The notes below the pieces were generated by a model, which saw only the letters and a program-made list of their open reading frames with translations, ran no database searches and had not been told where the DNA came from. Made by a program: the position numbers and the translations under genes. From Bryum argenteum (Eukaryota; Streptophyta; Bryopsida; Bryales; Bryaceae), in the NCBI GenBank assembly GCA_037043015.1, contig CM073325.1, forward strand, positions 12,193,001-12,257,000: DNA of 64,000 bases, read 5' to 3'. How positions within the stretch are numbered: position 1 is the stretch's first letter; every line of letters begins with the position of its first letter. This document shows, one piece after another, positions 18,219 through 60,917 of this stretch.

Positions 18219-19197
18219 TTAACCCCTAAACGTCCCAGCCTATTTTTAGCAAAAAAGCACATTTCCACAAAAATCGTCATAGATGAAAATGAAGAGAAGC
18301 TAATAAGATCTCAACCGTACAAACTTGTAATAGACTTATCGAAGATCATGTGGACCAAAATTTGAGTCATGAGGCCTTATAGATCGGGAGATCATAATAT
18401 ATTAATACTAAAAAAAAACTGCAAAATTTCATCATTTTCACTTTGAGGTGGAAATGCTACCAATATACCTATTGCAATGAAAAAGTCACCAACTTGAAAG
18501 ATGTTCATCTTCATCTTAATAAGTCCTTTACCCAACAAAAATTCATCAAAAAAATTCTTGGCTCAAATAAAAGCCATGCAATGGTAAAAACTGCCGAAAA
18601 ATTTACAAAGGAAAAATAGTCCAAAACTAGACCCTTTGCATTCAATTTCATGCCTTATCTTCAAAACGTCTTCGATCTTGTTAAGGTTTCTACCACTTAG
18701 ACTAGACTCTAATTGGAGGCCATTCCAAAAAATTAAGTTGAAATCCAACGGTGGATGAAGGAGATATAGCTCCTCAAATATCATCCATTTTCTCACTTTT
18801 TCTGTTGACAAAACATCATTGCAAATCCAATAGCAAAATCATTTGGATCAAAAAACTTCTCACTACAAAGTTGTTAAGAATCACCTTAACATCATGACCA
18901 TGAAAAAAAAATCATGGAAAACTATTTTTAATTTCACATAATTGGCTTGCAATGGTAATACATGCCCCATGCTTGGAAACCCAAAAACAAGAGCTGTCTT
19001 CACTAAAGTGCATTCCATTAATTCATACTTTATTGTATGGGCTTGCAAATTTTACAACACAAACTAGACTTGATTTGGAACCCAACACAAGTGATTTCAT
19101 CCAAAACGGAGTTCGGATGAAGGTGTTATGGCTCTTCAAAGTTTCTGCCCTCCATCCAAAATGTAGAAAAACGACATTGGGGACGTTTAGGGGTTAA
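18219..19197. mobile_element. 1-kb TTAA-flanked (piggyBac-like) non-autonomous element
   Basis: The 971-bp core at 18223-19193 begins CCCCTAAACGTCCC and ends in the exact inverted copy GGGACGTTTAGGGG. TTAA flanks it at 18219-18222 and 19194-19197. The interior encodes no transposase. Fragments of the same family occur at 29935-30475, 33290-33960, 37579-37960 and 57290-58633. TTAA duplication plus inverted repeats starting CCY is the hallmark of piggyBac-type transposition; assignment rests on these ends only. Confidence 0.78.
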
Positions 19198-20418
19198 AGT
19201 AGAGATTTCTTGAGTATATACTTCTAAACTGAGATTTGTTGCTCTTTTCTTTCGTTGTTATATTGAGCAACTTGGAGCAAGCCTAATGTGGACAAGATTT
19301 TTTTCTCCTAAACAAATTCTTACTAAAACTTTTTGACATAAGATCTTATACAGCAAATACAAGCGTAGTGTTTCCAACCCATAGCATCTTTGGGATTTTT
19401 CTTCCTATCAAGTACTATTTCCTTCTCAACCATGGTACGAAGCCTAAAGACTACAATCTAGGACAATAGGTGGGGCTACTTGCAACATCATAATCCTACA
19501 AAGCTAATAGCCTAACGTGGCCTAAGAGTTGGATATGCTATAAGGTTGTAGTCAAAACTTAGGGCATACCTTTTACTTGCCCCTATAAGAACTAATTGAA
19601 GCCTTATTCGTTGGACACTCAAGATTTACAACAAGTCTAATGGTTTATTGTATTTTGTCCCTCACTTGGACTCTATCAAGACAGTTCTACTCTAGATTTA
19701 TATGAGAGGAGTACATTATAGTTCAATACCAATCCAACATACAAGCAGCCGCTTCTTGGGCCAATTCTTGACTTAATGTATCGCAAATCTCAAGTATAAC
19801 AAACTTACGAGTGTCTCTTTTGCTTTGATTGTTGTTCCAGTGTTTCAACTATTTTGAATACAAAATCTACGTGTATTTCTTGTTCTCTCATCATGATGAC
19901 GATTAGGTAATGATTCTAGATCTAGCAATTCCGGGGCTACTTGCGGAGCCCTAAAAGACACATGTTAAAATAGATGGGATTTTTACTCTATGCTATTTTT
20001 GTCCACTCTAGGGTAAAATATTGATTACTTATAGTAATTAAGTTTGAGATATATTTCTTTTCCGCTCTTTAGATTCTATTGGCTTCTATGTTGCTTGGTT
20101 GTGGCGTTGTCTCATCGCCTTCAAGAAATTTCACAAACCTCGTACTCTATACATGGTTTTTGCTACAAACTTCTATGTCAAGTAATTCTTTTCATCTATA
20201 ACCAAAGAAATTCCATCAACACGAGGCTCAGCCATAGTAAACGCTAAACCGCACTAAGCTCTCTTGATGCTACCAAAAAACAAAAATTTGACGATGTTGC
20301 AAAAGATTGCATAAATAAAGCCCAATGATGCTATCGTGGGCCAATAACCTATTGAAAAATATACAACTTTTTTTTTTGATTAATTACAAAATTTGTCTTA
20401 AACACATGTAGAAGGATT
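19198..20418. other. AT-rich spacer, no gene seen
   Basis: I find no convincing exon, RNA gene or complete element in this stretch. Confidence 0.5.
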
Positions 20419-20713
20419 ACTTGCAAAGTGACATAATATAAAACGAGGAAGAGGAAGTTGGAATGGAGCCAATAGATAAGTCAAAAACCAAGTGCAGAGC
20501 ATGTCAAAAAATGTCATTTGGCTAGAGATGTTGAGTGCAAGAATACTCCTTCACGTGCCAATGGTTGTCATTGCCACTTGGAGGGGTATTCTTGCGCTCA
20601 CCATCTCTAGCCCAATGACATTTTTTGACATGCTCTGCACTTGGTTTTTGACTTATCTATTGGCTCCTTTCCAACTTTCTCTTTCTCATTGTATTTCTTG
20701 TCACTTTGCAAGT
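20419..20713. repeat. long near-perfect hairpin (about 131-bp arms)
   Basis: Left arm 20419-20549 and right arm about 20583-20713 are inverted copies at roughly 90 percent identity. The middle 54 bp, starting GGAGCCAATAGATAAGTCAA, pairs perfectly. The loop is only about 33 bp. The outer ends ACTTGCAAAGTGAC / GTCACTTTGCAAGT are perfect. No clean target duplication is seen. It could be a MITE or a young small-RNA precursor formed by inverted duplication. Confidence 0.85.
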
Positions 20714-21234
20714 GATATATTTAACACCATAATTATTTTGTAATTACCTTACTGAAAGCAAAAGTTGCGTATTTTACAATAGCACAAAATAGCCATTAGT
20801 TGGAATACGCATGAATTGTTGGGTTGTCAACTAACACTTCAATCCCAACTTCCCCGCTATATTCCACTTTAGGTCAGGTTCATGGCTTATTGAGCATGCT
20901 TTTATATCCTCCTCTCTGTTATGTAAGGGGCCATATTTGGTAGGCTTCCAATCAACAAACTCCTCAACAATATCATAACTAACCTAAAAACCACAACAAT
21001 TTGGGAATTGAGGGGGGCTTCACTATGGACCAAAAGCCATAGTCGTGGAATTTCGAAATTTGTGATTGTAGAGTAAAGTGTTTTTTATTTCATTTGGCAT
21101 TACACTACCTTGCAAAAGAAAGAATGATCACTAACTTTGGGGCCTCCAAAATATGCTACACTCTGCAAATGAATAATGTATTCATAGTATTCTTGATTTA
21201 TGGTTGAGTCAAAGCAAGTACTCGGACTCAACTA

Positions 21235-21680
21235 TAAGGTAGGAGTGGTGAAAACCGTCTGAATTTCAGCTTTGCATACTTGGAATAGTGGTGTAAAATT
21301 TTAATTATTTTTCCATGGTGTGCAAAGCTAGTGCAAATCCATCCCCCCAAAAAAAAAAAAAAATTGAGTAATCCTATAATTTCCTATGAATTTTTGAATC
21401 TCGAGTCTTAGGAGTCCCACTACCCGAACATAAAGTGCTGGCTTTTTTGCAAGGTTGTATTCCGAAAACTGTGGATTGAATGTCCCAAAATGAATTAAAA
21501 TAGGTTCAAGAACTGACATAGGAGTTGTCTAAAACCGTTCAGCATGCATGGTGGGAGCTAAAATTAGTGGATGGTTCCCAAAACCTGTCAGTTTTCCATG
21601 AACGGACGGTTTTACAGACCGTACCCATAAACCTACTGTGCGGTTTTTGGGGCTGGACGGTTTTCACGACTCCTACCTTA
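21235..21680. mobile_element. TA-flanked MITE with 22-bp inverted ends
   Basis: The 442-bp core at 21237-21678 begins AGGTAGGAGTGGTGAAAACC and ends in its inverted copy with one mismatch. The dinucleotide TA flanks both sides (21235-21236 and 21679-21680), as expected for Tc1/mariner-mobilised elements. The right half carries several ACCGT/ACGGT-containing motifs. No coding capacity is present. Confidence 0.75.
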
Positions 21681-21989
21681 ATCTAAGAGATCATGGGGCC
21701 CAAAGATCATTGATTGGCTAGATGTCAATTATTGACCAAGAGGCACAACCATAAAATTAATTTAAATTTTCTGACTGCAATTATTACTGCAATTTAGATA
21801 TGATTATTCCTCAGGCCCACTTATTCTCTAGTATTTAAATGACCCATAGTGGACTAAAAAACCCAATTCAATTTAAAGGTCATTTTCCAAGACTCACTCT
21901 TCAAGGGCCCTCTTCAAGAGTGGAGCTTTCCCGTAAGAGACTTCACGGACTAACCTCTAACGTTGTGCAACCTCAAAACAACAAAAAAT

Positions 21990-22870
21990 CCTAAAATTGC
22001 CCTTTTTTATTGCAAGATGCAAAGTTTTGAATTTTGACAAGCTTTGAAGTATGTAACCGTAAGATCTCGTACCTATATTGTACGTGAACATGTACACCAA
22101 ATCTTAGGTTCAAAATTTTCACCATTTGTGAGATCGTAATGTTCAAAATTGAAAAAATAGTTTTTTTCGATGTTGTAGAATGGCAAAGAAAAGTTATGGG
22201 AGCCCAAAAAACCATTATTGAAAAGAAATATGACATGAGGCTCTTCAAATTCTTGTTCCTAGGTGAGTAAGGAATATGTTTATGTAATTTATTCCCTCGT
22301 TGGCCCTATAAAAACTTGAAATAGTGCTTGATCTTTCACATGGAGATATGGTGAAATTCAAACACAAAGGCCCAGTTTCAATAATTACAAAGGCATGTAG
22401 AAGATTATTGGATTGAAAATCCAAACGGTGAGATCATGCCTTACTACCTTTCCTAGGTGTGAAAAAAACAAAACTTGAAAAAAAGTAAAATTTTAAATTT
22501 TGTTGATTTTTTGAAGTTTTTGCGTTTAATCAATTTGGGCGGATTTTGAGAATAAATGAGCATATACCACAGTTTGGGCAATTTTGGGCAGATTTTGAAA
22601 ATAAATGAGCATATACCGTAGTTTGGACAACTTTGGGCAGTTTTAGACACATTTTAAATAGTATTTTGAAACTTTGACCGCAAATATCTCCTAGAGTATG
22701 AGGAATTTTGGAGCATGTGATGACTTTTCAGAAAGCTATGGAAAAGCTCTACCACTTGGAAAGGTTTTAACTCCATGCAAGTTAAAAATGGTAAGTCAGA
22801 GGCTGACCAAATTCCAATCAACCTAATTTGGGCCTCACCCCCATTAGGAGTTAATAATTTGATACAATAA
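21990..22870 (+). repeat. dispersed AT-rich repeat, copy 1
   Basis: Matches 30480-30920 in the same orientation in patches: ACATGGRGATA/TAATT, AAAGGCCCA, GATTTTGGGCAAATTTT-like runs, and CTCAGAGTATGA-like text. Inside it, about 22530-22645 is a two-copy tandem of about 58 bp with AATAAATGAGCATATACC. Its ends are not defined. Confidence 0.55.
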
Positions 22871-23217
22871 GTGTCAAAAAGTTTCAAACTTTAGATTATT
22901 ACAAGTTTAGTTGTGATCCAGTGCAATCTGGCAAGTGGCATGCTCTAGTTTAAAGGCTAATCACCTTTTATCTCAAGTTGAGATACTTATGAACATAATT
23001 GTTCGGATGGCAATGCATTTGTGTGAAGAGACGGATGGCTAGTGATCATCTCTCTCATTTGATCACTTTTGACAATCCATTAAATGCAATTCTCATGAAG
23101 TAAGGTGCATAAATTTGTGAGAGATTTTCTTGTGGCACTCATAGATCTTGAATTCTCTAGTCTCTAATAGTTGTGTACACAAGCTACTGTACATGCCTTC
23201 TTCTTTAGTGTTTCAAG

Positions 23218-24209
23218 ATGCCCAAAGCATTATCTTGACAGACTCAAGATAATGCAGTTTCGATGCTCCAAATAGGATGTTCACACATGGAGATAGCAAA
23301 TACTTTGCATGTGAGTGTGGGACGTATTCATAACCTTTGTGAGGTATACATTCCAGATGTATTCACCTTGCGTAGAGGTAGGCCTCCAAACTTGAAAAGA
23401 GTGCATGAACGAAGGTGCGTGTTAGAAATGGCGAGGGGAGGAGTGGGTATTTGTGCAGATTTAGGAAGGTCTTCGCAACAAGTGTTAGAAGTGAAAGTGA
23501 GCTTTCATACTATTAAACGTGCACTTCATATAGCTTGTTTACGTTTGTAAACAAAGGTCAAAGAAACCACATCTTTCTCTCAAACATGGAAAGGCACGTG
23601 TAGAGTTCGCTAGTCTCTACGAACATTAGACCGAGAAGATTGGAGTCGAATATTCTCTGACCACTTTAAAATCATCCGCTTTAAATAAGATGGAAGAATT
23701 TGGTGTTAAACATGAGAGGCGATGCCGCTTTCAGAACAAACTATCAGTCATGGAGATGTGGGGATTATGGTTAGGGGTGTATGTGCATGCATGGACCTAG
23801 ATTGATATGCAAAGTGGAGGGGCGCATTAATCAGATTCGTAATCGTGACGTTCTAGAGAAAAATGTTCGTAGGGTAATTACCAAGTTCAACTTCGACCAT
23901 TCTCGCGTAATCTTCCAACAAGACAATGCTCCCAGTCACACAACAGAGATGCTTAAAGAGTCGTTCTCACGGCAACCTTTTGCTCTCCTACCTTGGTTTG
24001 CTCAATCGCTTGATTTCAATGCCATTGAACACATTTGGTCAATTCTCAAACGGAGACTTAATCAATATGAGAGATCTCCAAATGGATGATTAGAATTATG
24101 GGATCGTGTGGTAGGAGTTTTCGACTCAATTACACCAATTGATTGTAGGAGGCTTGTAGAAAGTATGCCACATAGAATAGCAGCAATAGGGAGGTGGAAA
24201 AAGTACTGA
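23218..24209 (+). pseudogene. dead Tc1-type transposase (DD34E)
   Basis: Reading along three frames gives a Tc1/mariner transposase of the animal and fungal type. An N-terminal helix-turn-helix lies at about 23263-23400 (IANTLHVSVGRIHNLCEV). The first catalytic block is degraded (FSDH near 23660). A weakened HGGGSVMVWG-like block follows. The second catalytic Asp is in QQDNAPSHT and the Glu in AIEHIW, with 34 residues between them. A conserved tail VESMPHR ends near 24209. A stop six codons after the first ATG, at least three further stops and frame shifts show that it is inactive. I could not find its terminal inverted repeats. It is clearly diverged from the intact copy at 34478-35485. Confidence 0.85.
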
Positions 24210-24556
24210 GAGATCATCTTTCATGGGTTGGCAAAATTGATCAAATACCTGAGTGGACTTTGGGTCTTTCTCATCTCTTTTAACAACTCTACTATCAAAG
24301 GCATTTTTCATGTAGTATGTACTATATACTACATAGTATGTTGATAAAATTTACCAACTCCATTTTCATGTGTTCATTTTTTGTTCACAAAAGATTGAAT
24401 GAAGTGTTTGCAGATGTTTGATCAATTTTGATAGGTAGTCTCTGAGATCCCCCTTTCTAGAAGAGGATTACGGTACTAGAGCATCATAAACTTGAAGTTT
24501 ACGCCATTTGTCATCCACATCCTCTACTAGTGATTGGTTCTATAGACTTCACTGAC

Positions 24557-25436: not shown

Positions 25437-29625
<4,189 letters not shown>

Positions 29626-29934: not shown

Positions 29935-30475
29935 AGAAAATTAGTCCAAATGTAAACCCTTTGCACTTAAATTTTTGCTTCCATTCAAAAAGATTTGATT
30001 GGGTTAAAGTATTACCACTAAAACTAGACTGTAAATGGAACTCATTCCAAAAAATAAAGTTGAAATCCAAAAATGAATGAAGGAGATATAGCTTCTCTAT
30101 AATCATTGAATTTTTTACTTGATTCATTGTAGAAACATCATTACAAATCCAATACCAAAGGTACTTGGATCTTAAAAAAATAAAACACCTGCACTTGGAT
30201 TTCATTTTAAGATAATGATTGAGTGAAAGGAATGCATGAGAAACTAAATTGATTACGCATATTTAGATGGCAATAGTAAAACATGTCCATGTTTGGAAAC
30301 TTCAAAAAAAGGGTGGCCTTCACTAAAATGAATGCCATTATTTCATACTTCGATGTATAAGTCCTTGAATATTACCACACAAACTAAACTTAATTTGGGA
30401 CCCATAAAAAGTGAATTCGGAATGGACTTTGTATGAGGAAGATATGGCTCTTCAAATTTTCAGAATTGTGCAAGG
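29935..30475 (+). repeat. fragment of the 1-kb TTAA-element family
   Basis: Matches the 18590-19160 interior in the same orientation: AAATTAGTCCAAATGTAAAC, ACATGTCCATGTTTGGAAAC, and GAAGATATGGCTCTTCAAA. Both termini are missing. It lies directly upstream of the ITPK4-like gene's first exon. Confidence 0.65.
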
Positions 30476-30479
30476 CTAG

Positions 30480-32911: not shown

Positions 32912-33005
32912 ACGCCTTAAACGCCCATAGGGTCTGAAAGGGGCAGCCCGATATTGAATCCCAGCATTTTTGGATTCGGGCATCATGAATGAACCAATCA
33001 ATGGA
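32912..33005 (+). repeat. truncated TTAA-MITE (362-bp family)
   Basis: The left part of the family is present (CCTTAAACGCCCATAGGGTC, GGGCAGCCCGATATTG, GGGCATCATGAATGAACCAA). The rest and the TTAA flanks are lost. Confidence 0.65.
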
Positions 33006-33289: not shown

Positions 33290-33960
33290 CTAGCAAAAAC
33301 ATTCATCAAAAAAGTTTCATGGCTCAAATAATAACATTGCAATGGTAAAACTGCCAAAAAAAATTATAAAGGAAACTAGTCCAAATCTACACCACTTGCA
33401 CTAAAATTCCTTTCTTCACTTCAAGACACCTCCGATCATGACAAAAAAAGTATCATTTAACCTATACTAAAATTGGATGTCATGCTAAGAAACAAAGTTG
33501 AAAACTAACATTGAATGAAGGCCCCAAGGAAGGAGACATAGCTCCTCAAATTTTATGCATTTCACACTTTTTTTCATCAATGAAAGACCATTGCAAATCT
33601 TAAACCAATAGTGTTGGGTTCAAAATTTTTGTTACTTGAAAGTTGTTAGTATTCAACTAAGGATCATATTCAAATTCAAAACATCACAAAACTAAATTTG
33701 TTTTTGCATAATTGGCCTGCAATGATAAAACATGCCTAATGTTTGAGAACTTAATAACTAAAACCTCCTTCACTAAAATGCATGCCATGAAGTTCATACT
33801 TTATTGTATGGGTCTACAATTTCATCTTTGACCCCAACCCAAGTGATTTCATCCAATACATGCTACGAATGAAGAAATTATGGCTCTTCAAAATTTCTAC
33901 CCTTCATCTAAAATGCTAACTTTCCCAACTCTAAGGACATGTAGGGGTAAGGGATAGACT
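33290..33960 (+). repeat. 5'-truncated copy of the 1-kb TTAA-element family
   Basis: Matches 18545-19197 in the same orientation from TTCATCAAAAAAGTTTCATG to a decayed right end GGACATGTAGGGGTAA. The left end is missing. Confidence 0.7.
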
Positions 33961-34249: not shown

Positions 34250-35933
34250 CAGTACCCGGCAAGTCTCATTCGTCCACCCCTGCTGCAGCTGAAATTCAGC
34301 AGTGAACCTGTAACTTGGAAATGACACCAAAGGCTCAAAAATGTATGGAATTGCAAACCGTAAATTGAGTTTGGAAGATAATGAAGTCTAGTTTCATGAC
34401 ATGCACTATTATTACATTGAAATAGTCAAAGCATACAACAATAGAGCATTTTGTGGTACACTATCTACCATCTAGTACTACCGCCCCCCCGCATTAATTA
34501 CAGCCTTCATCCGGTGAGGCATGCTAGCAAGGAGAATTTCAAGAGTCTCCATGGATATAGCTTCCCATGCCCGCTCAATACTTTTGATCAATTCATCTTT
34601 GTTGTTTGGCCTAGTCTCCTTTTGTACAACGTCTTTTAGAATCATCCACACATTCTCTATGGGATTCAAGTCCGGTGAGTTTGCAGGCCATGTAATCTTC
34701 TTGATCTTATGAGCTTCTCGCCATTGTTGCGGTAACTTACTACGATGCACCGGGGCACCATCTTCCATAAGGAATAGACTTTGAGGATCATCATGCATAT
34801 AAAAAAAGCCACTCAATCGACCCTCGTATACAACGTCAACAAAATCAGCACTTGTCCGTTTATCGGATGGCATGATAACAATGGGGCACTTTTCATAACC
34901 TGTAAAAGCACCCCAAATCATGACGGATGTGCGGCCAGATTTGAAAGTGGGTGCTAAGCAATCCCATGAATAGCGTTCATAAGATCGTCGCCAAACCTTC
35001 ACTTGCCGGGAATTTTTGCCTATCTCAAATGAAGCCTCATCTGTCCATATCACATGCATCCAATCCAATGTGTTCCAAGATTGATGTTTCTTGGCAAATG
35101 CCAATCTATCAGCCTTATGCTTGTGACTAAGAAATGGCTTCTTTGCTGCAACACAACTACGAAATCCAATACGTTTAATCTCCTTCTTTAGTGTACGTAC
35201 ACAAACTTTCTCAGTCATCTTTTCTATAATAGAGACAAGTGGAATGCGTCTATTCTGTATAAGAATGCGTACCAATTCCCTTCTACCTCGATCAGTTAGT
35301 TTGCAACGTCGACGTACGACTTTACGTGTGACCACTGTTCCGTAATCATTGAATTTCTTCAAAACATATTCAATGGTGGAACGTGGCATGCCTAACTCTG
35401 TTGCAATGCTACGCTGTGGCATTCCTGAACGACTCATCCCAACTATGACACCCTTTTCCTCTGTGCTTAAACGACAACCTCCCATTTTTGCAAAATCTTA
35501 AACACAAGAAAATGCACCTAAGGCTAAATCTGCCTTAAGAGAGAAACAAGAGCTAGAAAACTACGCATACACCATTTCCTGAAACAAAATTTGTGTTGAT
35601 TGAGTGTAGACTCAAGCTTCATTTGCACAAAGTTTCAGCTGAAAATGAGCAAATGCATGGCTTCCATGTGCATCGATATTTCTAAAAGCTCTATATACAA
35701 GTTGCCACCACACTGACACTGTTTGTTAATTTTTAATTTTTATCAAGATTTTTCTAATATTTCATTAATTGCTAAATGACACATGTTGTAAGACTACTCA
35801 TCCTACCCAATGTTAATAATTAAAGCTCTAGAGTTGGAGAGGTGAAGAATAGGGAGCATTTTGAAGTAGCATGAGTGCCACTTCAGAGAAGCTGGTTTCA
35901 GTGTGGTGGACGATTGAGACTTGCCGGGTACTG
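34250..35933 (-). mobile_element. full-length Tc1-type element with intact transposase
   Basis: The 1684-bp element is bounded by 29-bp inverted repeats starting CAGTACCCGGCAAGTCTCA that differ at a single position (34250-34278 against 35905-35933). TA flanks each end (34248-34249 and 35934-35935), the standard Tc1/mariner target duplication. One uninterrupted transposase gene occupies 34478-35485. The near-identical ends and open frame suggest recent or current activity. Confidence 0.93.
34478..35485 (-). CDS. Tc1/mariner transposase, DD34E type
   Basis: The single-exon 335-residue protein would bind the element's ends and carry out cut-and-paste transposition in the nucleus. Residues 8-50 form a helix-turn-helix (SIATELGMPRSTIEYVLKKF). 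A second DNA-binding region follows to about residue 115. Catalytic residues are D149 (IWTDEASF), D242 (LMEDGAPVHR) and E277 (SPDLNPIENVW); the last two are 34 residues apart. WGAF at 191-194 matches the usual WG motif, and the tail has SMPHRMKAVI. Length is normal for the family and no stop or frameshift is seen. Most plant mariner-like elements are DD39D, so this type is notable. The ATG at 35485 lies about 450 bp inside the right inverted repeat. Confidence 0.95.
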   Translation of the reverse strand: MGGCRLSTEEKGVIVGMSRSGMPQRSIATELGMPRSTIEYVLKKFNDYGTVVTRKVVRRRCKLTDRGRRELVRILIQNRRIPLVSIIEKMTEKVCVRTLKKEIKRIGFRSCVAAKKPFLSHKHKADRLAFAKKHQSWNTLDWMHVIWTDEASFEIGKNSRQVKVWRRSYERYSWDCLAPTFKSGRTSVMIWGAFTGYEKCPIVIMPSDKRTSADFVDVVYEGRLSGFFYMHDDPQSLFLMEDGAPVHRSKLPQQWREAHKIKKITWPANSPDLNPIENVWMILKDVVQKETRPNNKDELIKSIERAWEAISMETLEILLASMPHRMKAVINAGGR

Positions 35934-36271: not shown

Positions 36272-36640
36272 TTAACCCTTGAAGGTCCTTCCACTCCTCA
36301 ATGGGCAGCCCGAAATTGGATCTTAGCATCTTTTGGACTTGGGCAACATGAATAGTGCACTTTTTGAACTTGGGCAACATGAATGAACCAATCAATGATG
36401 AGTTTGCAACTTCCTACAAGGTTTTGTGCAATCCCAACCTACCTACCACAATCCTTTCAAAGCACAAATCACTCATACAAATTGCGATTTGAATTGTAGG
36501 ATTTCACTTTGTAGATGCATCACAAAAAGGTGACCAAAATGATATAAAAAAGTAAGTGAAAAATTGAGAATCAAAAGAGCTACAAGCAAGATTCTGTTGG
36601 AAAACAGCCCGAGGGGCTGACAGGCGCCTTCAAGGGTTAA
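36272..36640. mobile_element. TTAA-MITE, 362-bp family, diverged copy
   Basis: The 361-bp core at 36276-36636 begins CCCTTGAAGG and ends CCTTCAAGGG, flanked by TTAA on both sides. The interior matches the copies at 45249 and 59240 closely (CAACCTACCTACCACAATCC). Confidence 0.85.
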
Positions 36641-37578: not shown

Positions 37579-37960
37579 ATAGGGACATTTAGGGGTTAAG
37601 CTACCCTAAAATTGACATTTGAGATGAAGGCATAAACTTCTGAAGTGTCCTAACTTCTCTATCGAGAGTCCGTATTGGACGAAATCACTTGGCTTGGGTT
37701 CCAACTCAAGCATGTTTTATGTGGTTTAAATTGGAGACTCATAAAATAGCTAATGAATGAATGGCATGCATTTTAGTGAAGGCAATTATTATTTTTTGGT
37801 TTTCAAACATTTGGCATGTTTTATCATTGCAAGCCAATTAAGTGAGATCAAAAATATTTTCTCAACTTTGGTATTTACTTTGCAACAATGTTTCTACAAT
37901 GAAAAAAGTGAAAAAGTAGATGAATTTTGAGAGGCTATATCACCTTTTATCCATCGCACC
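37579..37960 (-). repeat. inverted fragment of the 1-kb TTAA-element family
   Basis: Matches the right half of the 18219-19197 element in reverse orientation (CCAAGTGATTTCGTCCAATA on the minus strand). A GGGACATTTAGGGGTTAA terminus at 37580-37597 has the orientation of a right end, so the fragment is rearranged. Confidence 0.6.
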
Positions 37961-44400: not shown

Positions 44401-44467
44401 TACAAGTAACTAGATAGAGAGTATGTTTGTAAGCCACTTTTATTGGGTTGCTTTGAGTTGCAGTCGT

Positions 44468-45244: not shown

Positions 45245-45614
45245 TTAACCCTTAAACGCCCATGGGGTCTAAAACGGGCAGCCCAAAATTGGATCACAAC
45301 ATCTTTTGGACTTGGGCATCATGAATAGTGCACTTTTTGAACTTGGGCATCATGAATAGACCAATCAATGATGAGCTTGCAACCTCCTACAAGGTTATGT
45401 ACCACCCCAACCTACCTACCACAATCCTTTCAAAGCACAAAATCATTCATACGAATTGTGATTTGAATTGTGAAATTTCACTTTTTGAATGCCTCACAAG
45501 AAGGTGACGAGTTTGACATCAAAATATAAGTGAAAAGTGGAGTACAGTGAGAGCTACAGGGAAGATTCCGTTGGAATCAAGCCCCTCGGGCTTGCTTGGG
45601 CGTTTAAGGGTTAA
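45245..45614. mobile_element. TTAA-MITE, 362-bp family, well-preserved copy
   Basis: The core at 45249-45610 begins CCCTTAAACGCCCA and ends TGGGCGTTTAAGGG, a perfect 14-bp inverted repeat, flanked by TTAA on each side. The interior is nearly identical to 59240-59601 (for example CATCTTTTGGACTTGGGCAT). It is non-coding. Confidence 0.9.
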
Positions 45615-47232: not shown

Positions 47233-48570
47233 ATGTCACGGGATCAATGTGCGGTTCTTGTGTGGCAATGGCAGCAACTATCCTTCATGTACCAAGCATT
47301 GCACGGATTCAGGAAACTTGTCGCGGCTCGCCCAAGACGCTTGTGGGCTCATGATAGAGGCTTACACCGGCCTGGATTCTTCGACCAGAACCTGCTGGAG
47401 TCATTCAACGCAAAGGAGTTCAAAGGCCGAATGCGCATGGATGTGTCCACATTTGAATATTTGTGTAGCACTCTAGCACCGTCGATGCTGAGACAGGATA
47501 CGAACATGCGGCTTGCTGTCCCTGTTGAAGTGAAGATTGCTGTAGCCATATCTAGACTGGCGACAGGTAATTCAATGCAAAGCATCGCAGATTTGTACAA
47601 AATTGGTCTTCCCACAAGTCAACTTGCGGTCTCTCAGTTCAGTGGTGCTGTGAAATCTGTTTTGCTGAAGAAATATATTAGATGGCCTTCACCTAGCGTT
47701 ATGGAAAAATTTGCAAAAGAGTTTGAGGACATTCACAACATACCGTATGTGGTGGGGGCCGTGGATGGCTCCCACATTCCCATTGTAGCGCCCCAGCTAC
47801 ACGCCGCCGATTACTACAATCGGAAGGGATTCCACTCCATCCTCTTGCAGGGGGTGGTTTCTAGTAAATGTTTGTTCTGGGATTTTGATATAGGATGGGC
47901 GGGCTCGTTGCATGATGCAAACCTGTGGGCGAGATCCGATATTGGGCAGTTCTGTGAGGAAGGAAAACTCTCACCTTACGCTTTGGTTGGTGATGCCGCA
48001 TATCCTTGTCGCCCCTGGATGTTATCTCCATTCAAGGGCCATAAAGACGGCTTGACAAGAGAAGAATACCATTGGAATTATGTGCAGAGTTCGACACGCA
48101 TGTGCGTGGAAAGAGCCTTTGGGATGCTCAAGGGCAGGTGGCGCATCTTGTTAAAGAGAGTTGACGTGCATTTGAAGAATGTCCCTGATCTTGTGAGCAC
48201 ATGCTTGGTGTTGCATAACATGTGCATCATATTTGGCGACAGTTTCTGGAAAACTGAGTGGATGCAGGAGGCGACGAACGAAGTACACAATGGTCTATCC
48301 GCCGGCAAGCTAGTACTAGGGATTTCCATACACGAGAGATTGGCCGTTGCAAACAACGCACTCCACAGCTTGGCAAGCATCGACATTAACAACAGAGAGA
48401 CCTTGGAATACATGAAACAAGAATGTGCAAAAGAGTTCCAAATTGCAATGGGCACAGGAGGGAAAACATCCAAAGAGCTTTCAGCAAGAAGGAATGGAAT
48501 AGCAAAGAGTCTCTGGATGGCCAAGACTAAGGCATGTATTGCAGAAAGTAGCAACTTACAGCTTCTCTAA
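47233..48570 (+). CDS. Harbinger transposase (DDE_Tnp_4 type)
   Basis: The single-exon 445-residue protein would cut and insert the element with help from its Myb-like partner. An N-terminal helical region with a helix-turn-helix (residues about 98-140, ISRLATGNSMQSIADLYKIG) precedes the DDE core. Catalytic residues are D178 (VVGAVDGSHIPI), D254 (LVGDAAYPC) and E293 (CVERAFGMLKGRWRIL); D228 in GSLHDANLW is the usual extra conserved Asp. LVSTCLVLHNMCI closes the domain. No stop or frameshift is visible, so the enzyme could be active. It closely follows plant and animal HARBI1-like proteins. Its stop codon overlaps the convergent Myb-like gene by 15 bp. Confidence 0.93.
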   Translation: MSRDQCAVLVWQWQQLSFMYQALHGFRKLVAARPRRLWAHDRGLHRPGFFDQNLLESFNAKEFKGRMRMDVSTFEYLCSTLAPSMLRQDTNMRLAVPVEVKIAVAISRLATGNSMQSIADLYKIGLPTSQLAVSQFSGAVKSVLLKKYIRWPSPSVMEKFAKEFEDIHNIPYVVGAVDGSHIPIVAPQLHAADYYNRKGFHSILLQGVVSSKCLFWDFDIGWAGSLHDANLWARSDIGQFCEEGKLSPYALVGDAAYPCRPWMLSPFKGHKDGLTREEYHWNYVQSSTRMCVERAFGMLKGRWRILLKRVDVHLKNVPDLVSTCLVLHNMCIIFGDSFWKTEWMQEATNEVHNGLSAGKLVLGISIHERLAVANNALHSLASIDINNRETLEYMKQECAKEFQIAMGTGGKTSKELSARRNGIAKSLWMAKTKACIAESSNLQLL

Positions 48571-51500
48571 TAACTTCTGCATTGTTTGTTGCATGCTTAC
48601 TAGTAAAGACATTTTCATGTCATCGCTTGCCTTCATTCCTTCCACAAGGCTTTTACTACTTTCTCTTATCTCACCAATGCAACGCTCTAAAAAGATTTCT
48701 TCCTTAATACGCTTTGGCTCTGGAAATTTAGATGTGCTCACCTCACTTCGTTGCAATGTTGTGTTTGTATCGGAGCTGGTTGTGCACTTGGGCCCATCCG
48801 GATTGATAGCGCTTGCATGTGCATGCGAGACGATATTCGCCCTGTCATACATAAATTCATCCACGAGCTGGTACCAACGGCACTTCTCCGATCGTTGTGA
48901 CCCCGACTTGGCATTCATAGCCTTGTCCTCCTTGTAGTCGTTGTAGATGACACTCCATTTCTTCCGACAAGCTTCGTTGTCCTTTGTGAAATCCGGACAT
49001 GGACACGAGCTTCGTGTGCAATCGCGACCAATTGTCCACACCTGCATGTGCACACCAACCCAATGTAAAAATGAACATCATGCCATTCTTAAACCTGCTA
49101 GGAAGTTATGATATCATCTTCCAGTTGAACCCTTTGCACTAATGTTACATTTCCAAACTTCGCAAATGCTTGTTGGAATTACCTCATGAGGAACCTGGTG
49201 AACCCGAATATGTAACAGAGCTGATGAGAATGTAGAAGAGAAACAAAGTATGCCAGAACGATGCTTAACCGAGGTAAAGGCATTGTTAGAGCTTGGCACG
49301 AGAATAGGAATCTCATGGATGGGAAAGAAAGAGGAGTGGGAGAAAACCTCGCACGAGCAAGTAACCAGGATTGTCACTCTCTGTCTTCCTTGCTACTAAC
49401 ATTTTTGATCTCTAACTCATGCGTTAACACTTTACCTCACAGGTGAATACGCTTGAAAGTGAAGTTGATCAATTAAGACAGCAGATTGGGGATCTTGGAA
49501 TGACCTTAGCACAAGCAAGGTAATGTCCTTCACAAGCAACGTAATGCCCTTCAATCACAAGCAAGGTAATGCCCTTCACAAGCAATGTAATGCCCTTCAC
49601 TGAATGTATCGATCTATAATTCACTGATTCATTTCCTGGCACTCTGGATTTTCCATCAGAGTCTATGTCAAAGAGCCTTGTGTCCTAGAGAAATCATAGT
49701 TTTCTTTCAGCTAATCCTGTTACTAATTTCGATTGTGCACAGTATAGCCTGTATATTATTGCATACAAGATACCAGCTCCAACTCTAATCAAGCCATTAT
49801 CAGATGAACCCCTAGCAATTAGTAACTCACCTCCATCTCTAATCAAGTCACTATCAGATGAACCCCTAGCAAATAGTAACTCACTAAATGTCAACCACTG
49901 CCCAAAAGCTTCCAATGGAATGAACCGTAGTTATAAGCCTCAGCAACCTACGAACTAATCAATGTCACTAACCACACACCTAACCCTGATTAAGTAGAGC
50001 CACGGAATTCTCAATTAAATCCACAATCGAAATTACTAATCCAATTGAAGGACATCCTGTTACTAATTTCGATTGTGTCCTTAATTCTCCAACTCTAGAT
50101 TAAAGACATCTAGCATGCTCTGGAGTATGGAGCATTTCAGGGATTCTAGGACATACACAAAATTCATACATGTAACTATGTAGAAAATATGATTGTGTGA
50201 AATTGAAGCATGCACAAATAGCTCTGAGTGAAGAAAGGTACTTCTGAGAATTCCGAGCTACCAGATTCTCCTATGAAAAATTGTTAATCGATTCTATCAA
50301 CAAAACGTCTCGTGCTGATAACAACTAATAACTTCTCCATTGTTGTAAGTGGTCAATTCACGAATCTAAAGCCTTACATGCACAAAAATCACGGATATAA
50401 AACTGTGAGCTATCATGTTCGAGCTCTTAAATAGGTCCTCACATGAAAGTTCTTGATCAATTCTTCCAACAAAATTGTTGATTCTATCTACATCATCAAA
50501 ACTCCTTCATAACGTCCTTGAAAATTACAGAACTGTTGCTGTAAGCATCTCTGTTCGTGAAACTAAAGCATCACATGCACAAAAATCACGAATAAAGGAC
50601 TGCAAGCTATCATATTCGCGCTCTTAACTAGGTCCTCACATGAAAAGTCCGTAATTGATAGTCGACTGTGGCGAGCATGCTGTTGTAAGTAATCTTCATT
50701 CATGCAACAAACAAATCAATTGCACAAAAACCACAAATAAAGAACTGCGAGCTATCATGTTCCATTGCCTAGGTATTCACGTAGGATCGCCTGAATCTTC
50801 AGCGACTGTTGAGTGAAATCACTGTAAAATTCAATACCTACGATATCTGATTCTTCTTTATCCCCCACCCCATCTTCCCAGCTATCTAAATCTCCGGTCA
50901 CAACAGAAGCTGTCTAAGGTGTCGAGGGAAGTTCTTCCGGAGAGCGTTTCTAACATTATATTTCTACTTCGGAATGTGGTATGTCTGTATAGCTGCATGT
51001 AGATGTAGCTACCACTTTTCAGCACTGTCCAGCCATTCTGAGCTTGCCCTCTTACATCATATTGATGTTCATGGTATATAGCGTCAATGCAACGAAAGCC
51101 AAAGTTTAAGAAGGCTTTCACTAAAGCTCCTGGTACTAGTCAAATTTATCTCGATCCTAGGTTGACGGTAAAACTACAGACATTGAAGCTTTGGAGGAAG
51201 AAGTTGAAGAAGGGCTGAGAGGTTGGAGCTACATTGGAATACGAAAAATATAAGAAGAAAACGGAAGGAACACTATACCTTGCTTTGGGGCAACAGTGAA
51301 TGTGTTCTGCATTTCACCTCTAATCGTGATGAGCTGTATGACCCAGTGGTCTTTCCAGTGGCCAACATGCTTCAGGTGCTCAACCTCCTCTTTCGAATCT
51401 TCCAATTCGACCACTTCCGTTTTTCTCTTAGAACCCCTCCGTTTCTTCACCGACTTGGATTGATCGGTTTCTTGAGAGCCACATTTCTGCGAACCCTCTG

Positions 51501-54373: not shown

Positions 54374-54453
54374 TTAACCCTTAGACGCCCAGCCCCTCTG
54401 AAAATACACTTATAAGCATGCCCGAGGGGCATGCTTGGGCGTTTAAGGGTTAA
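54374..54453. mobile_element. mini TTAA element, 72-bp core
   Basis: TTAA + CCCTTAGACGCCCA ... TGGGCGTTTAAGGG + TTAA encloses only 72 bp, including GCCCCTCTGAAAATACAC. It is a minimal derivative of the same family as 45245-45614. Confidence 0.85.
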
Positions 54454-54840: not shown

Positions 54841-54980
54841 ACCAACTTCAGACATTCATAACTCATTGTAGAAGAGTCCATAATGACGGTTTTACTTGCT
54901 TGACTAAATTTCCCCATGCACAAGATTCTTTCCACTGGTTACATCCAAATAGACTTTTTGCAAGGCACCACTAGCCTTCG

Positions 54981-55110
54981 CTTGGTGGTTAGGACTCATG
55001 ACCCACAATGAGAAGGTTGTGAGTTCTATTCCCCATTCCAGCGTCCACCTAACTATGGTGAGGGGTTGATATGCCTCGTTGTATTGGATACCTGAAAGGT
55101 CGTACACGGG
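54981..55110 (+). mobile_element. SINE-like element, copy 1
   Basis: TGGTGGTTAGGACTCATG resembles a tRNA-derived box A region and, about 35 bp on, GTGAGTTCTATTCCCC resembles box B. The body that follows (ATGGTGAGGGGTTGATATGC, TACCTGAAAGG) is shared with 58936-59060. The 3' end is not defined. Confidence 0.5.
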
Positions 55111-55881
55111 GATACCATATCAAGTATCTTAAAGAGCATGCCCAACCTTGTGCGTCACGCCGGGCTGCTCGACTGCACGAAAACTGTGCAGGCGCCGCTC
55201 GACCGACCACGTGCAACAACCTCTGCTCAGGCAACAGGGAAAGGCCTCTAGCCAATCACATTTGTTGACAAGGAGATTATAATAGACACTCTTTGCTAGG
55301 TGGCACTCGTGCATTGGTAAATGGGGACGCTAAAATACGAATGAAGGCACGGGATAACTTGGAGTTATGGTGTTCTAAAATTCAGGAGACCTCAACCCTC
55401 TTGACAACATTACAGGGATACGGTAGTGTGTGGGCTGGGGAGTCCTCACACTCCAAATTTGGCTCCACTCGCCTGCCCACAATGCGGGCCGGGCATGCTC
55501 TAAGGCAAGTTGCACTAGCCATTGTTTCTCCAAGCACTATGGTACGGATGTATTTCTCAATTGATAAATCCATCGACTATTAAAATAACACCTCACTATA
55601 AGTCTAAAAAGAGACACGGCATTACTTACACCACCATCACAAAGAAAGGCTGGGAAAAAAGAAAAAACCCAAATTCCGAGAGAGGGTCCCACTAAATCAT
55701 TAGCCACTCACTACTTTTTCCACCCGCTTTAAAATATTCCTTCCCATCCCACCTTGGCAATTCTGTTCATGCGCTCCAAGACATCATGTCGCACCACAGG
55801 GACCCTGTCTGCAGCACTCTCACTACTATCCAAAGAATCATTCCATGGCTACCATACAACTCTTCCCCTTCCCCTCTTCTG

Positions 55882-55882
<1 letters not shown>

Positions 55883-55936
<54 letters not shown>
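55883..55936. repeat. (TA)27 microsatellite
   Basis: Uninterrupted TA dinucleotides of 54 bp. Confidence 0.97.
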
Positions 55937-55941
<5 letters not shown>

Positions 55942-57144
55942 GAATATTCCCTTTTCAGGGTAAATATTATCACACTTCCTTCTTCACGTGCATCCCCTTG
56001 GCTTTGCATGGCTAGCTAGCTATTAGATTAGATTCCCTATGATCATAGTTCACACAATATCTTCTTGTGCGATCTTCTATGCATCTTAAAGCCTTAACAT
56101 TGTGACTACCGTACTTGCCCTTGTCTCCCTTGTCACTCAATCTATACCTCTTAGTTGTTGGTTTGGTTGCCCTAAGATTAGTAGTCTTGCATGATTCTCA
56201 TCATCGTGAACTTCGGTTAGTTGGTGTGTTTTGGGAGCTTGAAATCTCAAAACTGCAATTTACTACCTTCATGCACTTTTGGGAGTGTGGATATTTTTAC
56301 TTTTTTAGACTTCCAACGGTAAGATCTTGCTATTCTAATTGTTGATCCAAAAAATTGACGGTTGGATGTTTATCATTTGCAAGATCATAACATTTAAAAT
56401 GTGTCTCTCAAGTTTTTTTTGGGCATCATGAAGATTGATTTTGAGTGTTTTTGAAGGCTGCCCTCGTAGATTTAGTTTAAACTTTTTGACTTGGGTCACT
56501 TTGGAACTTCAGTATTAATCTTGTGATGAGCACATTTTTGTTTAAAAAAACACTAAAAAGAAAAAGAAAACTTCTAAAAGCTGCCCCATTTCACCTTGCA
56601 ACCTAAGGACTATTCTAGAAGACTCAAAAGTTGAAACATGACTTTACTAATTTTACCGCATATACTTTGCAATATAAGGAGTAGCCAATAAAAATCTTAG
56701 GTCAAAATATTACTTTCAACCCCTTCATCTGAGCTACCCAAAATTACAAATCCACGTTGAGTCTCAAGGAGCTTCAAGGGTTAAAAGATCATGAGGTAAG
56801 ATCTTGGACTTTTCAAAAGGCAAATGTAATTTTGCCTATCATGACAAAGTTTTGGCATTTGAGAATATTTTAAGAATGTACACATTTAAACCTATAATTT
56901 GATCCAAGTTAAACTTTCAATTTGATCCCAAGATGAACGCTTAGAAGTCCTTGCATTTTTTAAAGTTGTAAATTTAGAAAATGAATATTATTTTATTATT
57001 AACTAGTATGATTCTCGTCGTACCGACGGGAAAGGTCTTTACATGGTACTTTTAAAAAAGTTTCAAGTGTCTACCATTTCCTCAAACGGTTGTTTTTCTC
57101 CCTTTTTCTCTCTCTTTATTCATATTTTTTTAATACATAACAAA

Positions 57145-57230
57145 AGGTAGGTAGGTTGGTAAGTTTGTAGGTTGGTAGGTTGGTAAGTTCGTAGGTTGGT
57201 AGGTTGGTAGGTTGGTACATTGGTGGGTAG
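57145..57230. repeat. GGTTGGTA minisatellite
   Basis: Degenerate 4-12 bp units of GGTTGGTA / GGTAGGTTGGTAAGTT type; purine-rich on this strand with G/T bias. Confidence 0.9.
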
Positions 57231-57565
57231 GAAGGATTGCCGAGCAGTATTTTATTATAGAAGTAGATATTATTGTTTAAGAAAAAATGGTATGGATGAG
57301 TCATTTAAACTTTTTGAGTACTTTTTTTGAGCTACAATTGTGAAGGGTCATATCTTCTTTCTCTAGAGTCTATTTTGGATGAATTCACTTGGGTTGGGTC
57401 TCAAATCAAGTGTAGTTTGTGCGGTAAAAAGTGCACATACATACAATACAATTGAATTAATGGCATACATTTTAGTGAAAAAAGCTCTTGGTTTCGGGTT
57501 CTCAAACATGGGCCATGTTTTACCAATGCAAGCCAATTATGTAAAATTAAAAATAGACTTTCATG

Positions 57566-57598
57566 TTTTTTTTTTTTTTTTTTTTTGTTTTTGTTTTT

Positions 57599-57649
<51 letters not shown>
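57566..57649. repeat. poly(T) / (TTTTTG) tract
   Basis: About 84 bp of T with three interspersed G residues. Confidence 0.95.
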
Positions 57650-57734
57650 CATAATTATGGTCTTACGATAATTAAAGATTTTATTTGGAAGATTTGTAAT
57701 CCAAATACTTTTTAGTATATCTACGGGGGTGTCC

Positions 57735-58215
57735 CCTTAGGAGGTATAGTACATCATGTGCAGCAGAGGAGTATTATTGTAGGGGGTATTCTGATGACCA
57801 CGATGAATTAAATGGTCCCTATCTTTACCTTATTTTCCAATTTATGGTATTTTATGCCCCATACAATTACTTACATTCCGAGAGGGAGGGCAATATTGTA
57901 GACCCTTACTTTGCTATAAGAAAATATATGGGGGTAGGAAAGGCCATAATGGTTGATTGTTACATGCATTTTTTCATCCAGCCAAGCAAGTCCACATTGC
58001 AATAATTGCACCTCAAATATTTTCTAGTCATATATTGTTTTTTAGGGTATCTTGAAAAAAAAAGTATAAATTTGAGGAACTATTTACCTATGTATCTTAT
58101 TGATGATTGAATGTCCAATGATTTGTACACCCTATATTATCTCAAATTTTTTCCTAAATTTTCAGACACCCTAATATAATACCTCCCTACATTATGCCAC
58201 ACGTTGTTTGGAAAA
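57735..58215 (-). repeat. dispersed 480-bp unit, nested copy
   Basis: Inverted homologue of 17536-18010. Its edges read CTACGGGGGTGTCCCCTTAG (left) and AAGTGTCCCCCCAAG (right), a weak terminal inverted repeat, supporting a small transposon inserted in the TTAA-family element. Confidence 0.7.
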
Positions 58216-58935
58216 AGTATCTAAGTGTCCCCCCAAGTAAAGAATAAAATTTTGGCAAATTTCATTGTTGCAAGGTTAGTATTTGAGCCAAAATTTTTTT
58301 TTTGATGTAGTTTTTTGGTACGTGGGTGTTATTGAGATGAAGGTGAACAACATTCTAGTTGGTGAAATTTTCTTTGCAATTGGTCTATGTGGAGCATTTG
58401 AACTTTAAAATGAAAATGATGAAACTTTGTAGTCTGGTTTGAGGACTAATACATTACGATCTTGCAATCTTTGAGGCTTCATGACGTAGATTTTTGGTTC
58501 ACATGACTTAAAACAAGTTTATTACAAGTTTGTACGATTAAGATCTGAATAAATTATCTTTATTTTTGCATATGAAGCTTTTAAGAAAAATAGGTTTTTG
58601 GGCTACAAATACCCCGGGACGTTTAGGGGTTAAGGGCTAACCTCTTGTGTAGATGCTTGTGGATTGCTCTATTAAAGATTTTGCATGAAATATTATAATT
58701 TTTAGGGCTACCAACACAGGGTGTCTGAGGGAGCCAAACCCACATGGGAGGGGTTTGACTTCCATTTGACAATGTAAAGTTTCATTTATGGTAAGTAATC
58801 TAAAAATTGACTATATTTCAAGTTCTCATAGTTAGGGCGGTAACGAAATTGGGGAGATAATTTTTGGGGGTTGACCAAGTTTTTAAAAAGTTCGGTGATT
58901 AAAATAATAATATAATAAATACATATACAAATTTT

Positions 58936-59060
58936 TGGTGGTTGAGGGTCATGGCCCTTAATGAGGAGGTTGTGGTTTTTATTTCCTCTTAGTCATGAAA
59001 CTAGGGTGGGGTTCTTGTATCTTGTTGTTTGGGTACCTCAAAGCCCTTGGGAGGATAAGA
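58936..59060 (+). mobile_element. SINE-like element, copy 2
   Basis: TTGGTGGTTGAGGGTCATGG ... ATGAGGAGGTTGTGG aligns with 54983-55020, and the following GAAACTAGGGTGGGGTTC and GGGTACCT parts align with the body of copy 1. It is more decayed in the box B region. Confidence 0.5.
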
Positions 59061-59235
59061 TGTTGGTTACCTCTAGTGGCTATGTAGAAACTAACATAAT
59101 GTTTGCCTCAAGAGGGGTTAGAAGTCTCACCATTGGTGTCATGACCTCCGGGCACATGTAATGCTTGGTCAAACGAACACTATTCATGCCAACCTCTAAA
59201 TAGGCTTGAAGTTCTTCTTTGAACTTGGTTAACCC

Positions 59236-59605
59236 TTAACCCTTAAACGCCCATGGGGTCTAAACCGGGCAGCCCAAAATTGGATCACAACATCTTTTGG
59301 ACTTGGGCATCATGAATAGTGCACTTTTTGAACTTGGGCATCATGAATGGACCAATCAATGATGAGCTTGCAACCTCCTACAAGGTTATGTACCACCCCA
59401 ACCTACCTACCACAATCCTTTCAAAGCACAAAATCATTCATACAAATTGTGATTTGAATTGTAAAATTTCACTTTTTGAATGCATCACAAGAAGGTGACG
59501 AGTTTGACATCAAAATATAAGTGAAAAGTGGAGTACAGTGAGAGCTACAGGGAAGATTCCGTTGGAATCAAGCCCCTCGGGCTTGCTTGGGCGTTTAAGG
59601 GTTAA
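59236..59605. mobile_element. TTAA-MITE, 362-bp family, well-preserved copy
   Basis: Core 59240-59601 is nearly identical to 45249-45610, with the same 14-bp perfect ends. A second TTAACCC sits immediately upstream (59229). Confidence 0.9.
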
Positions 59606-59674
59606 ACGTCCAAGCATGCCCCTCGGGCTTGGTTTCCAGTGTATTTTCAGAGGGGCTTGACATTTAAGGGTTAA
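59602..59674. mobile_element. mini TTAA element abutting the preceding MITE
   Basis: Shares TTAA 59602-59605 with its neighbour and ends at TTAA 59671-59674. Its reverse complement aligns with 54374-54453, including CCCCTCTGAAAATACACT. One end has lost part of the CCC motif (TTAAACGTCCAAGC). Confidence 0.75.
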
Positions 59675-60684
59675 GGAAAAATCGCATACATCAAATTATT
59701 GTTGAACGAAGAGTCGAAGACCAATTGCAAAACACAAGACAAATGGCCTCGCATCTCTTTTGTTTATGGTTAACAAACTTCTTGGATGTCAATATCAAGT
59801 TCCGAGGTTGAAATGGCATCTTGTTCTAAAAGTCTTCAACTACAATAATGTCATCTAAAAAACATCCATGGTTATCGATGAATGCAACATACATAGATGA
59901 TAATTGAAGATTATGAAATTGGAATTGATCGAGCCTCACAACAGAGGCTAAAAATTTGGTCTCTGGAATTGGTCGACAAACAACTTGGACTCTTGGAGCT
60001 GATGGTACTTCACCATAAATAAATAAATGTAGTTCAACGTACAATTACTTGACTTGGAACAAGAAATTGTTTGGAAGTAAAATTAGTTGGTTGAAAACAA
60101 AAGCCTATCCTCTTGACTCTGTTGGTTATGACGTTGCTACCTACTAAAACAAAGTATTAGTACCTCCCTCACGCTTAGTTGTTGTAGTACCAAGCTCGTC
60201 TTGTTAAAATTGAGTTTACCATGGAAAGTGTTGAGCAACTTCATGATGTATATGTGCATAACAAATTTTCTACACAAAATCTGTATACCACTGAATGATG
60301 TGAAGAGATTGCATACAAAGTCAAGAAATTTTGTCATAGATGTGTTACTAATTTAAGATTTTTATTAAGTCTCGAATGACATATTACACAACCGTTACTT
60401 GCTCGGGAATGGAGAATTGTTTGATGTTCGAGCTTGTGGTGTAATATATCCAAGATCTATTAAAGTGTTCCTCCTAAAGAAATTGATACTCCGAGTGATG
60501 TGGTGCTGAAATTAAATATACATGAAGAATAAGAATGTCTTCATTGTACTCCTTGTGAATATTGCATTCAATGTGTTCTAAACCTCTAAAAAGCTCTTAT
60601 ACTCTATCATATACGCTTCGAGTTTCCCTAAATTAATAATATTCATATACAAAGGGCAATTTATCATGCTTGCCATAAAATTGC

Positions 60685-60917
60685 TTAACCCTTAAAGGTC
60701 TGAGAGTGCCCTGGCAACCAGTAGAATACGGTGTATTTTGGTTGTATTTGGAGTGAATGCACACCTTTAATGAGTTTGAGTTCAAAGAAGAAGTTGACAT
60801 TTGAATTAATGCGGTTCTAGTGAGCTATTACGATTCCAGTTTAGAGTTTCTTGTTGGTAGCAAATCCTAATTATACGATAGCGTACATACTATCCCCAAG
60901 GGACTTTTAAGGGTTAA
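60685..60917. mobile_element. TTAA-MITE, third size class (225-bp core)
   Basis: Core 60689-60913 begins CCCTTAAAGGTC and ends GACTTTTAAGGG, flanked by TTAA on both sides. The interior is unrelated to the 362-bp family. Confidence 0.8.

Follow-up and report, generated by a model that had tools for sequence, protein, structure and literature searches.

The window analysed here is a 64,000-nucleotide stretch of the genome of the moss Bryum argenteum (contig CM073325.1, positions 12,193,001 to 12,257,000), and it holds seven small elements of 971, 361, 362, 362, 225, 72 and 72 bp, not counting the duplicated TTAA. All seven are bounded by TTAA and by a terminal inverted repeat (TIR) that starts with CCC (Table 1). 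Elements of the piggyBac group, which is best known from insects and mammals, duplicate a TTAA target and have CCC...GGG ends, and it is the relationship of the seven elements to this group that we describe.

An initial annotation of the window had reported TTAA-flanked elements with CCC-type ends, and these proved to be real, six of the seven lying at the starts that it gave. The seventh also exists, but it begins at 59229 and not at 59602, a position that marks only its right part, the element being interrupted by another at 59236-59605. The four size classes of 971, 362, 225 and 72 bp hold, except that the copy at 36272 measures 361 bp rather than 362 bp. The end consensus of 12 to 14 bp that had been proposed was right in its inverted ends of CCC type but too strict, the ends being CCCTTGAAGG in the copy at 36272 and CCCTTAAAGG/CCCTTAAAAG in that at 60685. 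Perfect inverted repeats of 18 nt, TTAA included, are present in the 971-bp copy and in two 362-bp copies. Counted on both strands, the window contains 14 occurrences of the pattern TTAACCC[CT]TNAANG, compared with a mean of 0.06 and a maximum of 1 in 100 first-order Markov simulations. Across its entire length, the element at 36272 is 81% identical to that at 45245-45614, to which the nested copy at 59236-59605 is 98.6 to 99% identical. The window also contains 971- and 362-type copies at 70 to 86% identity, and these families therefore have both old and young members.

Table 1. Transposable elements, remnants and transposon-related open reading frames (ORFs) in the window, by position in the 64,000-nucleotide stretch
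Feature	Position	Strand	Remarks
971-bp non-autonomous element	18219..19197	.	18223-19193 between the TTAA copies; TIR CCCCTAAACGTCCC
361-bp element, subfamily of the 362-bp family	36272..36640	+	TIR CCCTTGAAGG; TTAA on both sides
362-bp non-autonomous element	45245..45614	+	45249-45610 between the TTAA copies; TIR CCCTTAAACGCCC
72-bp element	54374..54453	+	right-hand 36 bp align with a full-length element at its right end
72-bp element split by a 362-bp element	59229..59674	-	own parts 59229-59239 and 59606-59674
362-bp element	59236..59605	+	nested in CCC[TTAA]ACG of the TIR of the split 72-bp element
225-bp element	60685..60917	.	imperfect TIR CCCTTAAAGGTCT / CCCTTAAAAGTCC
Decayed 971-type copy	29936..30461	+	72% over 543 columns
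362-type remnant	32915..33003	+	86% over 77 and over 37 columns
Decayed 971-type copy	33297..33915	+	70% over 643 columns
Decayed 971-type copy	37615..37956	-	76% over 247 and 74% over 90 columns
Decayed 971-type copy or copies	57341..58633	-	83% over 204 and 74% over 392 columns; end TTAACCCCTAAACGTCCC at 58633
Tc1/mariner-type transposase ORF	34478..35485	-	335 aa; DDE_3, HTH_Tnp_Tc3_2; no internal stop
PIF/Harbinger-type transposase ORF	47233..48570	+	445 aa; DDE_Tnp_4
ORF without Pfam match	48556..49053	-	165 aa; opposite strand to the DDE_Tnp_4 ORF

End motifs and element families across the genome

The initial annotation had suggested that the 14-bp ends be sought in the whole genome. 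We searched its 258.8 Mb, in 25 contigs, for TTAACCCNTAAACGNCC and found 6,400 exact matches, compared with a single match to the reversed pattern that served as the genome control. The first 100 matches listed, all of them on contig C1, were read by eye and gave 23 convergent pairs, of which 13 spanned 978 to 982 bases, 4 spanned 370, 1 spanned 5,199 and 5 spanned other lengths.

Genome counts for the small families are lower bounds, because only the best-scoring candidates were scored, and each count includes the window's own copy. For the 971-bp family (best 40 of 6,692 candidates), 40 of 45 aligned rows were full-length or nearly so, at 96 to 100% identity. At least 363 of 370 bases were covered in 42 of 45 rows for the 362-bp family (93 to 100% identity; best 40 of 2,882 candidates), and at least 231 of 233 bases in all 40 rows for the 225-bp family (97 to 100%; best 40 of 961). 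The 72-bp family gave 40 of 41 rows covering at least 73 of 80 bases at 93 to 100% identity (best 40 of 555 candidates), and a family of at least 40 copies of so short an element is a surprise. A 971-type variant (L002) is 93.5% identical over 981 bp and has the TIRs CCCTTAAACGCCC/CCCCTAAACGCCC.

The terminal repeats CCCCTAAACG and CCCTTAAACG come in a C type, which contains CCCTAAA, and a T type, which contains an internal TTAA. We take CCCTAAA to be the plant telomere repeat unit. The internal TTAA of T-type ends was the target for the nested insertion at 59229-59674 of the window. Unpaired end motifs also occur outside every described element, with CATTTAGGGGTTAA at 37586-37599 and TTAACCCTTGAAGCTCCT reading inward from 56784.

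Full-length elements and their transposases

We searched the genome and 14 control genomes with the Pfam DDE_Tnp_1_7 profile and fetched 30 of the loci found. The moss genome yielded at least 116 matches (116 of 776 candidates were scored), all 116 of them over the Pfam cut-off, and the 14 control genomes yielded none. As the initial annotation had expected, the transposase lies outside the window: none of the 116 matches falls inside it, and the longest frames of the 30 fetched loci match nothing there, the longest open frame not being the transposase in every locus (in L015 it is another frame). Viral contigs yielded no relative: there were 27 pattern matches among them, none of which was confirmed.

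A DDE_Tnp_1_7 transposase flanked by these ends had also been proposed as a check, and three full-length elements answer to it. Designated lineage A, they lie at C1:23339974-23345172, C4:18396030-18400979 and C2:27235192-27240240, with TTAACCCTTAAACGCCC and TTAA at both ends. The C1 element (L039:201-5399) is the 5,199-base pair of ends noted above and encloses the DDE_Tnp_1_7 match at C1:23341202-23342323. Its minus strand carries an open frame of 897 codons, stop to stop, whose only PDB matches at E values up to 0.001 were piggyBac (6x67/6x68, E 2e-29) and piggyBat (9c0f, E 7.7e-24). The piggyBac residues D268, D346, D447 and D450, which we take to be its catalytic aspartates, align to D in this frame (positions counted from the alignment), and the columns of D268, D346 and D447 are invariant in nine divergent members. 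The piggyBat alignment (query 425-895) spans a C-terminal Cys-rich region with a Cys/His pattern; as judged from that pattern, a C-terminal Cys-rich domain of piggyBac type is present, and a zinc-binding role is predicted for it. The transposase region of the C4 copy is split into two overlapping frames, and this copy looks broken. Near the left end of the C1 element, at about L039 566-911, units of about 21 bases are repeated in tandem and show as a recurrent 7-residue peptide in several frames.

A second lineage (B) is represented by two copies of about 5.7 kb, with CCCCTAAAGGCCC seen at both ends. Other transposase lineages end in CCCCTCAAGGCCC (one end in each of two loci) or CCCCTAAACGTTT (one end in one locus); no right end of the L035 lineage was recovered when its sequence was extended by 2.8 kb.

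On its left side, the 362-bp element aligns with the left end of L039 over 40 bp at 82.5% identity, the motif CGGGCAGCCC standing at equal distance in both; on its right side, it aligns with the right end over 34 bp at 91%. Comparison with the other two full-length elements gave 81 to 82% over 43 to 45 bp on the left and 91% over 34 to 35 bp on the right, and a 36-bp stretch of the 72-bp element matches the right end of L039 at 91.7%. The left/right polarity of the identity is thus kept, which is more than short inverted repeats alone would give. On the strength of these alignments, we identify lineage A as the partner of the 361/362- and 72-bp families. The proposal of the initial annotation that a piggyBac lineage mobilises the elements is accordingly supported for these families, whose ends are those of elements with DDE_Tnp_1_7.

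For the 971- and 225-bp families, that proposal is upheld as far as TTAA and the similarity of the ends go, but their partner element was not found. The TIR of the 971-bp element together with TTAA matches lineage A at 15 of 17 positions, and its relative L002 has one end identical to lineage A; these matches are suggestive only of a link to that lineage. Elsewhere, the 971-bp sequence shares just internal fragments with the fetched transposase loci (L021, 86% over 92 bp; L040, 79% over 84 bp and 76% over 55 bp). The 225-bp family is linked to piggyBac by TTAA and end type only, and its membership is likely. On whether the 971- and 225-bp families depend on a piggyBac lineage other than the mover of the 362- and 72-bp families, we consider the evidence evenly balanced. 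Their subterminal sequences are unlike those of lineage A, and the genome contains several lineages with other ends (CCCCTAAAGGCCC, CCCCTCAAGGCCC, CCCCTAAACGTTT), whereas the lineage-A end of L002 and the 15 shared positions argue for a common mover.

We compared nonsynonymous and synonymous substitution rates (dN and dS) in the DDE domains. dN/dS was 0.07 to 0.08, with dS above 1, in two lineage-A pairs (83 and 85% identical) and 0.13 in one lineage-B pair (78%). These values show purifying selection, by which the lineages have long remained functional. Six DDE_Tnp_1_7 matches share a score of 258.4 bits, and the two of these that were fetched are near identical. The piggyBac family looks recently active, and some full-length copies appear intact.

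The full-length elements of lineages A and B contain a further ORF upstream of the transposase and on the same strand (L039:4642-5043 and L073:4838-5284, both on the minus strand). Its conserved core has 11 invariant columns in six sequences, and the lineage-A and lineage-B versions match with E values of 2e-7 in a three-sequence comparison and 5e-5 against the fetched loci. dN/dS was 0.14 to 0.21 in four pairs, a fifth pair being saturated, and the upstream ORF is under purifying selection; stops lie in it or just past it in some copies (L040, L012, L028 and others). No Pfam match exceeded the cut-off (one match had an E value of 0.03), and the L073 version had no PDB match at E values up to 1. 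We think that it is a putative 5' exon of the transposase gene.

Target duplication and origin of the small elements

Thirty copies of the 362-bp element were fetched with a query that carried TTAA at both ends. TTAA was present on both sides in 27 of them, and the other three had a one-base change on one side (L044, L048 and L056). No column was conserved past the four bases, and some copies, such as L042, L051 and L065, adjoined other element ends. Taken alone, TTAA fits a duplication of either 4 bp or 2 bp. The two lineage-B copies, at C4:13756797-13762497 and C8:13521752-13527452, are 99.84% identical over 5,509 columns and show no difference in another 294 columns at the right end, which overlap the first set in part, and they are flanked by TTAA/TTAA at one place and by TTAT/TTAT at the other. 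Such different flanks around near-identical copies require a 4-bp duplication. The 5.7-kb C8 copy (L074/L076), with TTAT on both sides, also represents natural use of a noncanonical target.

TTAA empty sites, a further check proposed at the outset, were recovered in part. The joined flanks of the nested element at 59236-59605 are 87.5% identical over 80 bp to the 72-bp element at 54374-54453, and the alignment is contiguous across TTAA. A second 362-bp copy (L058, C10:14643932) sits in a dispersed repeat, and its joined flanks gave 44 rows, 41 of which cross the joint at 74 to 85% identity, while 1 does not and 2 are its own halves. The ten of these paralogues that were fetched and aligned run on without a break, the joint being occupied by exactly four bases. 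Other candidate comparisons (L054 with the window, L049 with L034, and 36272 with L040/L004) were left unused, at 66 to 72% identity and, in L040, with an A-run at the joint.

We consider it very probable that the window elements are non-autonomous piggyBac members, resembling miniature inverted-repeat transposable elements (MITEs), that depend for movement, in trans, on full-length piggyBac elements of the same genome. The piggyBac assignment is correct for the 361/362- and 72-bp families and likely for those of 971 and 225 bp. Full-length elements elsewhere in the genome would supply the transposase, which would recognise short ends of the CCC(C/T)TNAANG type together with subterminal motifs, cut the element out and insert it at TTAA, with duplication of the TTAA. 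We infer seamless excision, present-day transposition and the choice of transposase that moves the 971- and 225-bp families. The elements represent a known superfamily, here well populated and recently active in an unusual host, and not a new kind of element; what surprises is how many open-frame transposases there are, together with the 72-bp derivative and the conservation of the upstream ORF. A broader picture, which we put forward tentatively and lean slightly against, is of a many-branched, long-lived and still active moss piggyBac radiation, in which transposases would have gained an extra N-terminal domain from the upstream exon and the 72-bp element, consisting of hardly more than two short ends and one right-end palindrome, would have multiplied to dozens of copies on a tiny cis requirement.

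MITEs of the Tc1/mariner type would duplicate TA, their outer T and A merely resembling a TTAA target. The window does contain a Tc1/mariner-type DDE_3 ORF at 34478-35485, and an empty site would look alike under a TTAA and a TA duplication. However, the lineage-B copy with TTAT/TTAT requires a duplication of 4 bp and not of TA, these ends flank DDE_Tnp_1_7 transposases, and neither TTAACCC nor GGGTTAA occurs between 30007 and 36272, around the Tc1-type ORF, so that this origin is highly improbable. Tourist-like MITEs of the PIF/Harbinger group, with a TTA or TAA duplication, are just as hard to credit in spite of the DDE_Tnp_4 transposase at 47233-48570, since the fourth base co-varies on both sides in lineage B (TTAA versus TTAT), beyond a 3-bp TWA, and full-length elements with these ends carry DDE_Tnp_1_7. 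Both origins are rejected because the duplication, as seen in lineage B, is of 4 bp.

Several observations weigh against movement of the window elements by piggyBac transposases. The TTAA-bearing query favoured copies with intact TTAA among the 30 that were fetched, and the proof of a 4-bp duplication comes from lineage B and not from the lineage that matches the 362-bp ends. All ten paralogous empty sites of L058 read TCAA where L058 has TTAA, which calls for either an earlier change to TTAA or a noncanonical site; we read this as a probable insertion into a repeat copy in which a mutation had already created TTAA. For the 971-bp copy of the window, whose flanks are unique, an empty site was sought without success, and no partner element carrying the 971-type end CCCCTAAACGTCCC or that of the 225-bp family came to light. 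Finally, the two closest pairs gave dN/dS values of 0.26 and 0.42, which fit copies free to decay, as expected.

Known piggyBac systems and other features of the genome

The moss elements have in common with piggyBac (PDB 6x67/6x68, presumably from Trichoplusia ni) a DDE_Tnp_1_7-type domain, the aligned catalytic aspartates, the duplication of TTAA and the CCC...GGG ends. They differ from it in an open frame of 897 codons, stop to stop, compared with a 594-residue chain, in the separate conserved upstream ORF, in an element length of about 5 to 5.7 kb and in their plant host. The match to piggyBat (PDB 9c0f, which we take to be from Myotis) reaches through the C-terminal Cys-rich region, and the host again differs.

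piggyBac is a mainstay of genome engineering in animals; in the literature that we covered, accounts of it as a natural element in land plants are scarce. The moss offers a natural plant system for the survival of piggyBac and for minimal ends, and plant-adapted enzymes are possible tools. We know of no piggyBac class in the common plant transposon annotation pipelines, and such elements could therefore be misfiled in other moss genomes.

A repeat table for C-fern lists 1,230 PiggyBac copies totalling 122 kb (PMC6890710), and one copy of 75 bp is listed for feather grass (PMC8319324). PiggyBac appears among angiosperm MITE superfamilies (PMC10004981) and, in a plant review, as a superfamily and an engineering tool (PMC10794571); two further papers state in general terms that piggyBac-type elements occur in plants (PMC8086355, PMC10813416). 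In the portions available of the first four of these sources, the entries are counts or a name and, unlike those described here, come with neither a natural element of full length nor its ends nor an empty site. Titles and abstract openings disclosed nothing on autonomous piggyBac elements of plants or bryophytes, a coverage that is incomplete and no proof of absence, and does not establish that the lineage is undescribed, as the initial annotation had it. The accessible part of a paper on Pleurozium schreberi (PMC6723128) does not mention piggyBac, the matching word in PMC10619864 is the unrelated 'piggybacking', and genome papers on cork oak, switchgrass, grass pea and bamboo each mention piggyBac once.

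Contig C1, the largest (44.1 Mb, 17% of the genome), looks poor in piggyBac, with 5 of the 116 DDE_Tnp_1_7 matches compared with 19.8 expected, none of the 40 full-length 971-bp copies compared with 6.8 expected, and, over its first 28.35 Mb, 100 end motifs compared with about 701 expected. C1 may be a sex chromosome or differ in some other way, with the qualification that lists of best candidates carry selection bias; the best-40 lists of the 362-, 225- and 72-bp families say little on this depletion, as their cut can fall within tied scores that are sorted by contig.

Next to the PIF/Harbinger-type transposase of the window, the 165-aa ORF may be the partner protein usual for such transposases. 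Two adjacent psaA/psaB-type genes lie on contig C12 (114,600 bp). The highest PDB scores for the PsaA are with 6l35/7ksq/7kux/7xqp and 8htu (1703.6 and 1703.5 bits), entries that we take to be from Physcomitrium patens, and the next chain reaches 1669.7 bits, as would fit a moss. The window genes include EDR2_C and Methyltransf_29, which we take to be families mainly or wholly of plants.

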